Position numbers and translations under genes: made by a program
Notes under the pieces: model-generated
What the model was told of the DNA's origin: nothing
Seen by the model: the letters and a program-made list of their open reading frames with translations, nothing else
The model's database searches: none
Shown here: piece after piece, positions 3,279-58,080 of the stretch
Layout: each line of letters starts with the position of its first letter
Numbering within the stretch: position 1 is the stretch's first letter
DNA from: Ancylobacter crimeensis
Lineage (GTDB): Bacteria; Pseudomonadota; Alphaproteobacteria; Rhizobiales; Xanthobacteraceae
Assembly (NCBI RefSeq): GCF_023016805.1
Contig: NZ_JALKCH010000004.1
Location: 62,001 to 126,000 of the forward strand
Length of the DNA stretch: 64,000 nt
Direction: 5' to 3'

Positions 3279-3674
3279 ATGAAGTCCCGTGACACCGTCG
3301 TGCGGCTGAAGCGTTTCCAGACCGAGGAAAAGCGCCGGCAGTTCCTGCAGATCGAGACCATGATCGCCGAATTCGAGCGCATGGCCCACGATCTCGACCG
3401 GGAAATCGCCGTCGAGCACCAACGCGCCGGCATCAGCGACCCGACGCATTTCGCCTATCCGACCTATGCCCGTGCCGCCGCCGGGCGTCGCGACAATCTG
3501 CGCGCCTCCGCCGACGAATTGAAGCAGCAGCTCGACGACGCCCGCGCCGCCTATGAGGCGGCGCTGGAAGAGCTGAAGAAGATCGAGACGCTGGGCGAGC
3601 GCGCCGCCGACACGATGGACCTCGCCGCCCGCGCTTCCCAGCGCCCGCGCGGCCGGCCGGCGCTGTCCGCCTGA
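3279..3674 (+). CDS. fliJ: FliJ-like coiled-coil protein
   Basis: The 131-residue protein is almost entirely helical and charged, with MKSRDTVVRLKRFQTEEKRR at the N-terminus and long heptad-like stretches (residues ~25-110) such as IETMIAEFERMAHDL and ADELKQQLDDARAAYEAALEEL. Proteins of this type next to ctrA in Rhizobiales are annotated as FliJ, a soluble chaperone-like coiled coil of the flagellar type III export apparatus. No other flagellar gene is present, so the role rests on family resemblance and synteny. GTG 3273 is possible, but GGAG at 3265-3268 fits ATG 3279 better (10 nt against 4). Confidence 0.7.
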   Translation: MKSRDTVVRLKRFQTEEKRRQFLQIETMIAEFERMAHDLDREIAVEHQRAGISDPTHFAYPTYARAAAGRRDNLRASADELKQQLDDARAAYEAALEELKKIETLGERAADTMDLAARASQRPRGRPALSA

Positions 3675-3687
3675 GGGCGGTGCGGGC

Positions 3688-4347
3688 TCATTCTGCCGTC
3701 AGCATGGGAAAATGCCGGGCCGCATCCGGCGCCAGCACACCCCCGGCGCGGGGATCGTCGGCGATCTCGACAGCCCGCCCCACCGGCCGGAAGCCGGCCT
3801 TGATATAGAAGGGCAGGGCGCCCGGGTGGTCCAGCGTGCAGGTGTGCACATGCACCCGCTTGGGCTGCACCCGCTCCGGCCGGCTGGCGAAGGCCAGATC
3901 CAGCGCGCGATTCATCAGGAAGCGTCCGGCGCCTGAGCCGACCAGCTCCGGCACCAGCCCGACAAAGGCCAGCTCGACCTCGCCCGGCACCCGGAAATCC
4001 AGCTCCACCAGCCCGAGATCCGCGCCCGCGCGGCGCAGCACATGCACGCCGACATCGGGGTGTCCGATGATGGCGCAAAGCGCCGCGTCGTTCATGCGCA
4101 GCCGCGAGAACCAGAGCCAGTCCTCGCCGATGCGGCGGAACAAGGCGCGGTACCAGCCGGGATCCGGCGCCTCGACCCGATCCAGCGTGAAGCCGTCCGT
4201 GCCGCGCTCGGGCAGCGGCGCCGGGCGCGCGGTCATCTCCAGGAAGGTGACGATGCAGGCGATCTTGCCGGGTGGCACGGTGGTGTAGCCGTCGAGATCG
4301 AGGAGGACGGTGCTGGCTTGGGTCATGAGGCGGCCGGTGGGTGTCAT
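3688..4347 (-). CDS. GNAT-family N-acetyltransferase
   Basis: The product is about 219 residues. The C-terminal half carries a GNAT fold: a central strand VELAFVGLVPELVGSGAGRFLMNRAL contains the acetyl-CoA pyrophosphate loop (V-P-E-L-V-G-S-G-A-G), then VHVHTCTLDHPGALPFYIKAGF, the typical motif B end. The N-terminal ~70 residues hold the beta strands before the fold. The acceptor is unknown. It converges with the fliJ-like gene, stops 13 bp apart. ATG 4326 (MTQASTV) is a possible shorter start, and neither start has a clear ribosome-binding site. Confidence 0.8.
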   Translation of the reverse strand: MTPTGRLMTQASTVLLDLDGYTTVPPGKIACIVTFLEMTARPAPLPERGTDGFTLDRVEAPDPGWYRALFRRIGEDWLWFSRLRMNDAALCAIIGHPDVGVHVLRRAGADLGLVELDFRVPGEVELAFVGLVPELVGSGAGRFLMNRALDLAFASRPERVQPKRVHVHTCTLDHPGALPFYIKAGFRPVGRAVEIADDPRAGGVLAPDAARHFPMLTAE

Positions 4348-15640: not shown

Positions 15641-15669
15641 TTGACTTTCGCCGGGGGCGCTCCTTTAGT
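15641..15669 (+). promoter_or_regulatory. Predicted sigma70 promoter of cobW operon
   Basis: TTGACT (15641-15646) and TTTAGT (15664-15669) are separated by 17 bp. A start near 15676 would place the first transcribed bases at the 5' end of the plus-strand cobalamin aptamer. The divergent cbtB promoter lies about 40 bp away. Confidence 0.55.
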
Positions 15670-15679
15670 GGGCGCGATC

Positions 15680-15855
15680 GACGGTTCCTTCCGCAAGGAG
15701 GGACGAAGAGGGAATGCGGTGCGGGGCGGCTGGCCCCAAATCCGCGGCTGCCCCCGCAACTGTGAGCGGCGAGCCGGCGCCATCGCCACTGGACGGCAAC
15801 GTCCGGGAAGGCGGCGCGAAGGCCGTGACCCGCGAGCCAGGAGACCTGCCGTCGA
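15680..15855 (+). ncRNA. Cobalamin riboswitch controlling cobW operon
   Basis: The aptamer shows the 5' paired region TTCCTTCCGCAAGGAGGGA, then GGGAATGCGGTG, the core GGCTGCCCCCGCAACTGTGA (15746-15765), GCCACTGG (15785-15792) and the B12 box GAGCCAGGAGACCTGCC (15834-15850). About 150 nt of leader separates it from cobW, including a GCCGCGCCACGCGGC hairpin-capable stretch that could act as the expression platform. It should lower corrin synthesis when cobalamin is plentiful. Confidence 0.93.
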
Positions 15856-16006
15856 TCCGGTCGCGCGCCGGGCGGGGTGCCCTGTACGTGCGGACGGGCG
15901 GCTTTGAGGGCCGCCCCGCTTGGGTCCCGCCGCGCCACGCGGCACGGCCCATGGCCGGCGCGCCCCAGTCCTGTCGTACTTCCCTGGCCGCTGGAGAGCC
16001 GTGCTC

Positions 16007-17080: not shown

Positions 17081-17719
17081 ATGCGCCAGCCTTCCCTCGT
17101 TCTGTTCGACATGGACGACGTGCTCTGCATCTCGGACAAGCGGGTCCGTTCGGCCCATCTCGCCCGGCTCTCCGGCGGCAATGCGGACCGTATCTATTCC
17201 GCGCTGTGGGACAGCGGCTTCAGCCATGAGGCGCTGCAGGGCGGGATGACAAACGACGTCTATCTCACCGAATATGGCCGGCGCATCGGCTATCCCATCA
17301 CCCGCGCCGAATGGATCGCCTCCCGCAGGGCCTCGATGACGCCGATCCCCGAGGTGCTGGCGCTGGTTGAACAGGTGAGGCGTCGGGCGAGGGTCGCGGT
17401 GCTCACCAACAATGTGACGCTGGTGAGCGAGCATATCGACGAACTGTTCCCCGAACTGGTCGGCCTGTTCGGTGCGGACATCTTCGCCTCCGCCGCCTTG
17501 GGCGTCGGAAAGCCGGAGGCGGCGTGCTTCCACGTCTGCCTCGCGGCGCTGGGCGTTGCGCCGGGGGAGGCGCTGTTCGTCGACGACCTCGCGGTCAATA
17601 TCGCGGGTGCGCAGGCGGCGGGGCTCGATGCCGTGCAGTTCACCACGCCGCGCAAGCTGGCGTCTGCGCTGGCCGCACGGGGTCTGGTGGCGCCCGAGGT
17701 GCTGGAGGCGGCGGGCTGA
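17081..17719 (+). CDS. HAD-superfamily hydrolase between cobW and cobN
   Basis: The product is 212 residues with all four HAD motifs: nucleophile Asp10/acid-base Asp12 in VLFDMDDVL, the motif II Thr in AVLTNN, Lys in GVGKPEAACF and the acidic pair in ALFVDDLAVNIAGA. The helical cap inserted after motif I places it in subfamily I, typical of small-molecule phosphatases. Substrate unknown. It starts 9 bp after cobW, and its TGA overlaps the cobN ATG by one base (TGATG), so it is translationally coupled into the cobalamin operon. A phosphatase step such as alpha-ribazole-phosphate hydrolysis is a speculative fit, since cobC is absent from the window. Confidence 0.88.
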   Translation: MRQPSLVLFDMDDVLCISDKRVRSAHLARLSGGNADRIYSALWDSGFSHEALQGGMTNDVYLTEYGRRIGYPITRAEWIASRRASMTPIPEVLALVEQVRRRARVAVLTNNVTLVSEHIDELFPELVGLFGADIFASAALGVGKPEAACFHVCLAALGVAPGEALFVDDLAVNIAGAQAAGLDAVQFTTPRKLASALAARGLVAPEVLEAAG

Positions 17720-20700
17720 TGCACATCCTCGCCACCACCAGCGCCAGCCTCGACGACCTCGTCGAGCCGATCGATCTCGGCCAGGCGCCGGGCGAGATGG
17801 TGGTGGCCTCCTTCACCGACAGCGACCTCGCCGTGCTGGCGCGGGCGTGGAAGGCGGGGCGGCATGAACTGCCTTCGCTGCGTCTCGCCCCGCTCGCCGC
17901 GCTGCGGCACCCGATGTCGGTGGATTTGTGGATCGACAAGGTGGCCTCGCGGGCGCGGGTCGTCGTGCTGCGCCTGCTCGGCGGACTCGACTGGTGGCGC
18001 TACGGCGCCGAACGGCTTTCCGCCGAAGCGCGGGCGCGGGGTATCGCGCTCGCCCTGCTGCCGGGCGAGGACCGGGACGACGACCGGCTGGCGGCGCTCT
18101 CCACCCTTCCGGCGGATGAGCTTGCTGCACTGCTCGCCTGTTTCCGCGCCGGCGGGCCGACGAACATGGCCGCGCTGCTGCGACGGATGGCAAGGCTGGC
18201 CGGCCGGACCTGCGAGGTGCCGCCGCCCCAGCCGGTGCCGCTGGCGGGAATCTATCACTGGGACGGCGAAGCCGGTCAGCGCTCCGCTCCCTCACCCCAG
18301 CTCTCTTCCCTGTGGGGAGAAGAGGCGGGTTGCTCGGGGGCGGGGGGCGCACGTCCATACGGCGAGCCGGAAGCCGTTTCACCGGAGCGGAGAGGGTTAC
18401 AAAGCGCGCCGGAAACCCTCTCCCCCTCGGGGCGAAAGTTGGGTGAGGGGCCTTCGCCGTCCCCCGCTCTGGAGCCGTCTTCATTCCCCGACCATGCGCC
18501 TATCGTTCCCGTCCTTTTCTACCGCTCCATGTGGCTCGCCGCCGACACCGCTCCGGTCGACGCGCTGTGCGCCGCGCTGGCCGAGCGTGGACTGGCGCCG
18601 CGGCCGATCTTCGTCGCCAGCCTGCGCGAGCCGACATCGGTTGCCCTGCTGCGCGAGAGCTTCGCCGCCGATCCGCCGTCCGTCATCGTCACCCTTACCG
18701 CCTTTGCGAGCGCCGAACCGGGCGAGGACAGCGTGCTCGATGCGCCCTGCGTGCCGGTGCTGCAGGCCGTGGTCGCGACCACCCGGCGCGAGGCCTGGGC
18801 GGAGGGCGCGCGCGGGCTGACCGGCGCCGACCTCGCCATGCATGTCGTTCTGCCCGAACTCGACGGGCGGGTGCTGGCCGGCGCGCTTTCCTTCAAGGCC
18901 GCGGAGCCGCCCGATGCCGATCTCGGCGACGGCGCGGGCGGCGGACGCTTCATCAATGCGGTCGAGCCCGATCGCGTCGCGCAGGTGGCGGACCGGGTCG
19001 CGCGGCTGGTGAGGCTTCATCGCACGGCTTCGGGCGAGCGGCGCATCGGCATCCTCATTCCCGATTATGCCGGCGCGCCGGGGCGGACCGGCTGGGCGGT
19101 GGGGCTCGACGTGCCGGAAAGCGTGCGCCTCCTGCTCGGCGATCTCGCCGGGGTCGGTTATCGGGTGGAGGCGATCCCGCCTGATGCCCGCGTGCTGCTC
19201 GACGAGCTGGCGGGCGGCGAGGCGAGCCTCGACCTTGCCGTCTATCGCCGCCATCTCGCCGGTCTGCCGGAAGCCGCGCGGACGGCCATGCTGGCCGCAT
19301 GGGGCGAGCCGGAGGCCGATCCCGATGTCGCGGACGACGCCTTTCATTTCCGGGCGAAGCGTTTCGGCCATGTGTGGGTCGCCATCGCCCCGGAGCGCGG
19401 GTCGCGGATCGAGCGGCGGGCGCAGTATCACGATCCCGCCTTGCCGCCGCGCCACGCCTTGCTTGCCTTCGGGCTGTGGCTGCGGGAGGTCGCCGGGCTC
19501 GACGCGCTGGTCCATATGGGCGCGCACGGCACGCTGGAATGGCTACCGGGCAAGCAGGCGGCCCTGACCGCCGGCTGTTTCCCGGAACTTGTGCTCGGCG
19601 CCCTGCCGGTTGCCTATCCCTTCATCGTCTCCAATCCCGGCGAGGCGGCGCAGGCCAAGCGCCGCATCGCGGCCGTCACCCTCGGGCACCTGCCCCCGCC
19701 CATGATCGAGGGAGCGGAGTCAGGGGAGCGCGCCGGGCTGGAGCGGCTGGTCGAGGAATATGCCGAGGCCGAGGGCCTGGATCGCCGCCGCCGCGAAAGG
19801 CTGGCGCGGCTCATCGTCGAGGAAGCCACCCGGCTCGGCGTCGCGCGCGAGGCGGGCGTCGCCGCAGGCGGCGAGGACATCGCGGCGCTGCAGGCGATCG
19901 ACGGCTGGCTCTGCGACCTTAAGGAGATGCGGCTGAAGGATGGCTTCCACCTCTATGGCCGCGGCGCCTGCGGGGAGGAGGAGCGCGCCGGCCTGCTGGC
20001 GGCGCTGGACGGCCGGCGGGTGAAGGCGGGTCCGGCCGGCGCGCCGGGGCGGGGGCGCAGCGACGTTCTGCCGACCGGGCGCAACATCTTCGCCAGCGAT
20101 CCGCGCACCTTGCCGACCCGGACGGCGATGGATCTCGGCCGGCTGGCGGCGGAGGAGGTGCTGCGCGCCTACCTTCAGGACCATGGCGCGTGGCCGCGGC
20201 GGCTGGTGCTCGACCTGTGGGGCAGCGCCTCGCTGCGCACCGGGGGCGAGGAAATCGCGCAGGGCCTCGCCCTGATGGGCTGCCGCCCGCTGTGGGATGC
20301 GGGCACCGGGCGGATTACCGGCATTGAGGTGTTGCCGCCGGCGGTGCTTGGCCGGCCGCGGGTGGATGTCACCTTCCGCATCTCCGGCCTGTTCCGCGAC
20401 CTGTTCCCGGCGCAGATTGCGCTGATCGACGCGGCGTTGAAAGCGGTGGCGGCGCGTGAGGAAAGCGTCGAGGAGAACCCCCTGCGCGCCGAACCGGACG
20501 GCCCGCGCATCTTCGGCTCGGCGCCGGGCGCCTATGGGGCGGGTCTTGCCGATCTGCCGGAGGGCGTGCCCGACCGCGACGCGCTGGGCGCGGCCTATCT
20601 CGACAGCGCCCGTTTCGTCTATGGCGGGGCGGAGGGGATCGGCCGACCGGCGGGCGAGGCCTTCGCCGCGCGGGTGGCGCAAGCGGACCTGCTGCTGCAC

Positions 20701-21198
20701 GGCGCGGACGATCCCGGCCGCGACCTGCTGGAAGGCGATGCGGACCTTGCCTTCATCGGCGGTTTCGCGGCGGCGGCGGCGCGGCTCGGCCATGCGCCCG
20801 ACCTCGTGGTGCTCGACACCGCGGATCCGGCCCGGCCGCGCGCCCGGCCGCTGGCGCAGGCGCTGGCGCGCATCGTCCATGGACGGGTGGCGCCGCGCTA
20901 CATTGCCGGGCTGCTGCGCCACGGCCCGCGCGGGGCGGCGGAAATTGCCGAGACGGTCGACCGGCTGGTGGGCTTCGCTGCCGCGACGCCCGCCGTCTCC
21001 GGACATCTGATCGAGCGGCTGCATGCCGCCTATGTCGCCGACACCGAGGTCCGCGACTTCCTCGCCGCGCAGAGCCCGGAGGCCGCCCGGCTCGTCGCCC
21101 GCCGATTTTCCGAAGCGCAGGCGCGCGGGCTCTGGCACCCGCGCCGCAACGATGTCGCGGCCGACCTCGCGACGCTGGCCGGGGAGGCGGCGCAATGA
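17719..21198 (+). CDS. cobN: Cobaltochelatase large subunit CobN, carrying an in-frame repeat
   Basis: The 1159-residue protein is the large subunit of the ATP-dependent CobNST chelatase that inserts Co2+ into hydrogenobyrinic acid a,c-diamide. It resembles magnesium chelatase BchH: VPVLFYRSMW, MGAHGTLEWLPGKQ, SNPGEAAQAKRR, LPTGRNIFASDPRTLPT, VLDLWGSASLRTGGEEIAQ and VDVTFRISGLFRDLFP are family blocks. ATG 17719 overlaps the HAD stop. Residues ~190-245 are a low-complexity Ser/Pro/Gly-rich stretch encoded by a palindromic repeat (18289-18450) that interrupts the N-terminal region between LAGIYHWDG and IVPVLFY without breaking the frame. cobS and cobT are not in this window. Confidence 0.96.
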   Translation: MHILATTSASLDDLVEPIDLGQAPGEMVVASFTDSDLAVLARAWKAGRHELPSLRLAPLAALRHPMSVDLWIDKVASRARVVVLRLLGGLDWWRYGAERLSAEARARGIALALLPGEDRDDDRLAALSTLPADELAALLACFRAGGPTNMAALLRRMARLAGRTCEVPPPQPVPLAGIYHWDGEAGQRSAPSPQLSSLWGEEAGCSGAGGARPYGEPEAVSPERRGLQSAPETLSPSGRKLGEGPSPSPALEPSSFPDHAPIVPVLFYRSMWLAADTAPVDALCAALAERGLAPRPIFVASLREPTSVALLRESFAADPPSVIVTLTAFASAEPGEDSVLDAPCVPVLQAVVATTRREAWAEGARGLTGADLAMHVVLPELDGRVLAGALSFKAAEPPDADLGDGAGGGRFINAVEPDRVAQVADRVARLVRLHRTASGERRIGILIPDYAGAPGRTGWAVGLDVPESVRLLLGDLAGVGYRVEAIPPDARVLLDELAGGEASLDLAVYRRHLAGLPEAARTAMLAAWGEPEADPDVADDAFHFRAKRFGHVWVAIAPERGSRIERRAQYHDPALPPRHALLAFGLWLREVAGLDALVHMGAHGTLEWLPGKQAALTAGCFPELVLGALPVAYPFIVSNPGEAAQAKRRIAAVTLGHLPPPMIEGAESGERAGLERLVEEYAEAEGLDRRRRERLARLIVEEATRLGVAREAGVAAGGEDIAALQAIDGWLCDLKEMRLKDGFHLYGRGACGEEERAGLLAALDGRRVKAGPAGAPGRGRSDVLPTGRNIFASDPRTLPTRTAMDLGRLAAEEVLRAYLQDHGAWPRRLVLDLWGSASLRTGGEEIAQGLALMGCRPLWDAGTGRITGIEVLPPAVLGRPRVDVTFRISGLFRDLFPAQIALIDAALKAVAAREESVEENPLRAEPDGPRIFGSAPGAYGAGLADLPEGVPDRDALGAAYLDSARFVYGGAEGIGRPAGEAFAARVAQADLLLHGADDPGRDLLEGDADLAFIGGFAAAAARLGHAPDLVVLDTADPARPRARPLAQALARIVHGRVAPRYIAGLLRHGPRGAAEIAETVDRLVGFAAATPAVSGHLIERLHAAYVADTEVRDFLAAQSPEAARLVARRFSEAQARGLWHPRRNDVAADLATLAGEAAQ
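18289..18450. repeat. Palindromic repeat element inserted in frame in cobN
   Basis: CCCTCACCC (18289-18297) and GGGTGAGGG (18441-18449) form inverted ends. Inside are CTCTTCCCTGTGGGGAGAAGAG (around 18303-18324) and AACCCTCTCCCCCTCGGGGC (18414-18433), the style of rhizobial intergenic palindromes. The span by these ends is 162 bp, a multiple of three, and it is read through with no stop. A related intergenic element, also built on CCCTCTCCCC...GGGGAGAGGG, lies at 57795-57921. True insertion boundaries may differ by a few bases. Confidence 0.75.
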
Positions 21199-57666: not shown

Positions 57667-57794
57667 AGGGCGGGGAGGGCGACGCTTTCCGCCCGCCCGC
57701 GGCCGCAGGCTGAGCCTGCCGGCCAACCCGATCGCCCGGTATCGCCGGCCGCCCGACCTTGCACGCGCCAGTACGTCCCGGAGCGGCGTCTTCA

Positions 57795-57921
57795 CCTCCC
57801 CGTCGGGGGGAGGTCGGCGCGCCTGCGTCGGGTGAGGGGAGGGCGGCTGCGGAGCCTTGGCGCGTCGAAGACCCTCGCGTCGCAGCCCCTCAATCCAACC
57901 CTCTCCCCGACGGGGAGAGGG
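57795..57921. repeat. Intergenic palindromic repeat related to the cobN insert
   Basis: The 414-bp gap 57667-58080 has no ORF of note. It contains CCTCCCCGTCGGGGGGAGG (57796-57814) and ACCCTCTCCCCGACGGGGAGAGGG (57898-57921), two strong hairpins flanking about 80 bp with GGGTGAGGGGAGGG and CCCTC repeats. The CCCTCTCCCC/GGGGAGAGGG design and GGGTGAGGGG are shared with the element inside cobN. It separates convergent genes, and transcription termination or stem-loop mRNA ends are possible roles. Confidence 0.65.
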
Positions 57922-58080
57922 GATGCGTCGCGCCGGGTCGTGCGGTGTTACGGCTCGTGAGGCTCGCCTTCCGTCATGCGGAGTGGAGCGGGCGTCGCCG
58001 GCTTGAGCGGCCCGCCTGCCGAACCTGCCGGTTAAACCGAACCGCCCGACCGCGCACCCACCGCCCGGGAGCGCGGGGCT

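Follow-up and report, generated by a model that had tools for sequence, protein, structure and literature searches.

The window, the whole 64,000-nt stretch of Ancylobacter crimeensis DNA analysed here, contains a cobN gene whose product scores 1514 bits against the NCBIfam CobN model NF008973 (cut-off 1235) and 818 bits against PF02514. A decayed palindromic repeat, named type A, is read through in frame within this gene, and a second site of CobN, loop 2, is free of elements in this species and occupied in others. The features discussed below are as follows.

17719..21198, plus strand: cobN, cobaltochelatase subunit CobN, 1159 aa (NF008973, PF02514)
18268..18495, plus strand: linker 1 of CobN, residues 184-259, 228 nt, flanked by two conserved blocks (relatives, pLDDT)
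18289..18450, plus strand: decayed type-A palindromic repeat, in frame, 54 codons, residues 191-244 (arms, HMM, codon scores)
18289..18297, no strand: left outer arm, CCCTCACCC (inverted-repeat inspection)
18441..18449, no strand: right outer arm, GGGTGAGGG (inverted-repeat inspection)
18375..18449, minus strand: best-preserved type-A unit within the insert (HMM, 29.4 bits)
19213..19236, plus strand: loop 2 site of CobN, approximately residues 499-506, element-free in the window's species (comparison, model)
57887..57937, no strand: type-A copy between genes, less decayed than that in cobN (HMM, 30.6 bits, E 1.4e-8)

Two divergent cobalamin riboswitches (RF00174; 15362-15575, minus strand, 106.5 bits; 15665-15867, plus strand, 126 bits) sit upstream of the cobN-bearing gene cluster. 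They are the sole Rfam matches at gathering thresholds in the window, so the insert is not assigned to a known RNA family, and five further loci examined gave no Rfam family at these thresholds.

The insert in cobN and its dispersed relatives

The insert is 162 nt long and free of stop codons in the cobN frame. Its outer arms, CCCTCACCC and GGGTGAGGG, are perfect inverted complements, and an inner pair of 25 nt (18296-18320 and 18419-18443) is 72% complementary. A separate 12-nt perfect inverted repeat (18260-18271 and 18452-18463) brackets the insert from outside. An HMM built from five type-A CobN inserts, all from other genomes, matches the insert at 18449-18375 (29.4 bits, E 3.6e-8) and again at 18398-18289 (21.2 bits, E 1.2e-5), compared with a top score of 9.0 bits among 20 dinucleotide shuffles of the window. 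The palindromic repeat that the first-pass annotation reported in frame inside cobN is thus borne out. The copy is far from intact. It matches the type-A reference at merely 34 and 44 bits, its best further match in its own genome is 83% over 44-46 nt, and its predicted RNA fold is no better than that of shuffled sequence (z -0.45; 65 of 200 shuffles equally good). The mean codon log-odds is -0.44 in the insert, +0.12 in the upstream flank and +0.30 in the downstream flank. We conclude that the insert descends from a dispersed type-A palindromic repeat and has decayed. Solved structures of CobN exist (9uk9 and 7c6o). In the structure model of this CobN (mean pLDDT 84.2), residues 187-257 form the sole long stretch with pLDDT below 50 and are predicted to be disordered, which agrees with the loop proposed earlier for the insert.

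The genome-wide search suggested with that proposal gave at least 35 type-A matches in the window's genome. At least one type-A match is present in 29 of 30 Ancylobacter genomes, and type-B matches are present in at least 24 of the 30. A related element had also been placed near 57795; an intergenic copy does exist there, but its clear part is 57887-57937, and the stretch 57784-57813 scores just 5.6 bits (E 0.89).

To locate the copies, we took a census of an 800-kb stretch of genome G010 (2.0-2.8 Mb), picked because cobN is in it, with a threshold of 45 bits and gene calls from a simple purpose-made gene finder. Among 102 copies, 96 are intergenic, two lie at gene edges and four lie within predicted genes. 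Two of these four are the CobN loops, and the others are type-B copies near gene ends, one at 24 residues from a predicted gene start and the other at 31 residues from an end. Six weaker intragenic matches (below 45 bits, type B or D) have positive codon scores and were judged to be chance. In 400 kb of G011 that lacks cobN, all 27 copies are intergenic. The repeats therefore resemble REPs as defined in the accessible text of the RepRanger paper (PMC12306157): types A and B occur in many similar copies per genome, and in both censuses the copies lie mostly outside genes. The palindromic copies in CobN, double units of approximately 90-110 nt, exceed the 14-40 nt given there for E. coli REPs.

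We considered whether the repeats are specially suited to coding and rejected this. The average number of open frames out of six in G010 is 2.94 for type B, 2.06 for type C and 4.00 for type D, and the baseline, 830 other intergenic 100-mers, has 2.83; these values indicate no general pre-adaptation. According to the available text of PMC8266576, REPs mobilised by Y1 transposases (RAYT/TnpA-REP) are, like the Ancylobacter repeats, short, dispersed and of high copy number. In contrast to such systems, the Y1 transposase family PF01797 is unmatched in all 30 Ancylobacter genomes, with a control search positive in 5 of 14 genomes, and we rejected this enzyme as the mover of the repeats. We know of no transposase for types A-D.

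Two insertion sites of CobN across the genus

Linker 1 measures 12-60 nt in 9 of the 30 Ancylobacter genomes and 93-354 nt in the remaining 21, and every length is divisible by three. The 21 long linkers carry type A (14, including the window's own copy at its 34 and 44 bits), type B (three), types A and B together (two) or type C (two); the queries were derived from CobN inserts, which biases this classification. Three mutually unrelated repeat families have thus supplied inserts, each matching repeats dispersed through the very genome that carries it, and some congeners hold near-intact copies at this position. Outside Ancylobacter, the median linker 1 of 122 readable loci (63 from named records and 59 from genomes of the family, partly overlapping) is 39 nt, with nine above 60 nt; one locus, L161, has a 14-nt linker, the one length not divisible by three. 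A conserved CobN segment at this position is rejected by the short linkers of 9 of 30 congeners and of most outside loci, and the earlier view that CobN has tolerated an extragenic palindrome here stands. Before counting, we dropped L051 and L052, which duplicate loci of G018 and G010, as well as L027/L151 and L095, in which the N-terminal block is out of line with the linker, and two partial loci, L094 and L115.

On the presumed Azorhizobium side, three loci (L145, L149 and L150) have a long linker 1 with a different dispersed repeat, which has 68-79 matches per genome; this indicates that the linker was colonised there independently. A further genome, G109, has 64 matches of this repeat and a 111-nt linker 1 without a clear copy. 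The linker of L149 (genome G100) reaches 753 nt and consists of near-identical tandem units with palindromes in each. In Ancylobacter, the 21-nt linker of G016 (L024), GCTTCCCCCGAGGGGCCTTCT, resembles the outer ends of a type-A insert minus its middle and is possibly a deletion scar.

Of the 29 Ancylobacter genomes that are readable at loop 2, 18 carry an element there: type A in six, B in three, C in five, D in three, and B plus C in one, the assignment of G024 resting on a 42-bit match. One further loop, in G025, is unclassified (44 aa), and the loop is short in ten genomes, including the window's. The structure model shows the empty loop 2 of the window's species as a short confident turn from a helix (490-499) to a strand (502-505). 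Unlike linker 1, loop 2 was by this prediction no disordered linker prior to insertion, which weighs against the reading favoured below. The two sites also differ in how the same repeat is read. For type A the plus phase is 1 in loop 1 but 2 or 0 in loop 2, in tallies that pool related genomes and so include shared descent, and type C reads as NDLILRCSA in loop 1 and as HPEVRAERASKD in loop 2. An open frame is therefore kept rather than a fixed peptide. In G013 (L031, approximately 3435-3700), the cobN frame is broken near loop 2 with type-C fragments adjoining, by a failed insertion or an assembly error; either not every case is intact, or the assembly is faulty.

To follow turnover, we built a CobN tree of 29 Ancylobacter rows with G013 omitted, linker 1 excised and gappy columns removed. 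Insert presence changes at least 7 times at loop 1 and at least 8 times at loop 2, and insert type at least 13 and at least 16 times, respectively. These counts merge gain and loss, which the tree does not distinguish, and recombination within cobN could inflate them because the tree is built from the host gene itself. An earlier quick tree (41 rows with outgroups) had given 11 and 17 changes for loop 1; it was replaced, and the lower figures are reported. On the tree, G005, with a 15-nt linker, is the sister of G017, with a 192-nt type-A linker.

Other host genes and the decay of the inserts

Peptide scans of the 30 genomes gave at least 24 places outside cobN in stop-free open frames of at least 550 aa. 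We inspected 22 of them, and the remaining two fall inside the census stretches. Eight of the 22 lie within genes and have negative codon scores. An ATP-dependent DNA ligase (TIGR04120) hosts five of them and UvrC (TIGR00194) hosts two; the eighth is in a protein of G009 (L324, 1589-2665) that we take to be PhnJ-like. The last has a type-A-encoded tail and no NCBIfam match; its element lies just 29 residues from the end, and the gene was kept as a lead.

The ligase and UvrC linkers were read in all 30 genomes. In the ligase, type A is matched at 45 bits or more in eight genomes and at 30-45 bits in two, and 17 ligases have a 54-nt linker with no repeat match of at least 30 bits. In UvrC, nine genomes match at 45 bits or more and nine at 30-45 bits, although the weak matches may be partly compositional. 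The window's own genome is among the hosts, with a 495-nt UvrC linker and a 50-bit type-A match outside the window (contig C21, approximately 203894-204388). All of the linkers at both sites are stop-free, with every length divisible by three. In-frame insertion is thus found in the functionally unrelated genes of CobN, ATP-dependent DNA ligase and UvrC. Beyond what the first-pass annotation described, linker 1 is a recurrent hotspot of unrelated families, and loop 2 and the linkers of ligase and UvrC behave alike.

The intragenic copies range from near-intact to decayed. Near-intact copies fold far better than shuffled sequence, with z -10.3 for type A of G014 and z -9.8 and -8.9 for type C, and at both CobN loops of G010 the codon log-odds is negative in the insert and positive in the flanks. 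Across the 70 element-matching linkers of four sites, drawn from 84 linkers of at least 90 nt, those that match an element better have stronger hairpins (rho -0.58) and less host-like codons (rho -0.35, p 0.003); the rows are non-independent, with descent and linker length left in. Such a joint trend would follow from a gradual decay of fresh inserts to coding sequence.

Origin of the inserts and relation to known palindromes

In the window's cobN, we observe a repeat copy that is in frame, at a linker that is short in relatives; elsewhere in the genus, unrelated repeats occupy both CobN sites. The insert is very probably a former intergenic type-A repeat that entered a permissive CobN linker in frame, decayed, and now encodes a predicted Ser/Pro/Gly-rich disordered segment. 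We infer a mechanism of untargeted repeat spread combined with purifying selection. The repeats would spread through the genome without a target, and an intragenic copy would survive only where it has a length divisible by three, an open frame and a peptide product that lies in a tolerant loop. After entry, the copy would shed its hairpin and drift to host codon usage, seemingly a slow shift into ordinary coding sequence.

A bolder reading, which we put forward tentatively and regard as doubtful, is that palindromes land repeatedly at the two CobN loops and at the linkers of ligase and UvrC, where whichever repeats a genome carries may be inserted, swapped, lost and ameliorated in frame, each resident promoting the next insertion. 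If true, such sites would be a continuing route from non-coding mobile DNA to new protein sequence. The related possibility that the loops are self-reinforcing landing pads, in which the palindrome already present draws in further ones or recombines with them so that families swap at one site, is rather unlikely. It is suggested by the type changes on the CobN tree (at least 13 and 16) and by composites: in G010 a type-A end adjoins type C, in G011 and G019 a type-A half adjoins type B, loop 2 of G020 holds B plus C, and the ligase of G017 has multiple type-A units. However, a tolerant loop that merely accepts repeated insertions would yield an identical pattern, and the repeats have neither a PF01797 match in any of the 30 genomes nor a known transposase.

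A function of the palindromes as mRNA hairpins at domain boundaries, for example in slowing the ribosome for stepwise folding of CobN, ligase and UvrC, is consistent with the strong folds of several intragenic copies (z -10.3, -9.8 and -8.9) and with the conserved blocks that flank CobN linker 1 and the ligase and UvrC sites. We consider it very improbable, as a long insert is absent from linker 1 in 9 of 30 genomes and from loop 2 in 10 of 29, the ligase linker is 54 nt without a repeat match of at least 30 bits in 17 of 30, and the frame has outlived the hairpin in the window copy and in many UvrC copies. Ordinary low-complexity expansion of the linker by slippage or duplication, with palindromy by chance in GC-rich DNA, would suit a degenerate, Pro/Ser/Gly-rich copy of unremarkable fold, but is hardly credible: it is contradicted by the HMM score of 29.4 bits, where the highest among 20 shuffles is 9.0, and by the near-intact dispersed-repeat copies at the same site in congeners.

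Rickettsia palindromic elements are in-frame translated palindromes in unrelated proteins, a feature they share with the Ancylobacter repeats preferred here as the source of the insert. The two differ in host group and in sequence, a distinction drawn from description rather than sequence comparison. Unlike the Rickettsia elements, those of Ancylobacter belong to several unrelated families and reside chiefly in two CobN loops and in the linkers of two other enzymes. The intragenic GTAG/CGTC REPs of Di Nocera (2013, PMC3733652) are the closer parallel, as far as the main text of that paper goes. They are palindromes in ORFs of free-living bacteria, and their hosts include DNA ligase and Uvr genes. 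The paper proposes that linkers and loops tolerate them, and it gives a case in recB where two Xanthomonas species carry differing REPs at approximately one site. Intragenic position, ligase and Uvr hosts and loop tolerance are all shared with the Ancylobacter inserts. The CGTC-tagged REPs described there have the tag at one end, a stem of 8-9 bp and a loop of 4-5 bp. Type A differs from both classes, as its inspected ends, CCCTCACCC and GGGTGAGGG, contain neither CGTC nor GTAG. Inspected by eye, the type-B copies that G014 and G018 hold in loop 2 have CGTC, a ATGGCCGGG stem and a 4-nt loop; type-D copies in loop 2 also begin with CGTC, but have a longer loop. The main text of PMC3733652 does not mention CobN, Xanthobacter or Azorhizobium and, unlike the present case, has no genus-wide series of three to four families in one loop. 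The coding palindromes of Nematomorpha (PMC6649704, as partly available) are likewise inverted repeats in protein-coding genes; they are mitochondrial, long and perfect, unlike the Ancylobacter inserts. Among open PMC papers, mostly top-ranked results, we found none on such inserts in CobN or in Ancylobacter. Intragenic REPs are already known; what is new, as far as these papers go, is that several families have colonised the same loops time and again, a pattern seen across 30 Ancylobacter genomes.

To our knowledge, most palindromes described in coding sequence so far are scattered cases. As a practical warning, repeat-derived linkers may pass for functional domains, and alignments of CobN, ligase and UvrC in Ancylobacter include repeat-derived sequence. 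Within one genus, empty, fresh, composite, decayed and possibly excised inserts form a natural series at the same loops of named enzymes, which permits direct tests of loop tolerance, frame filtering and codon amelioration in the passage from mobile non-coding DNA to protein.
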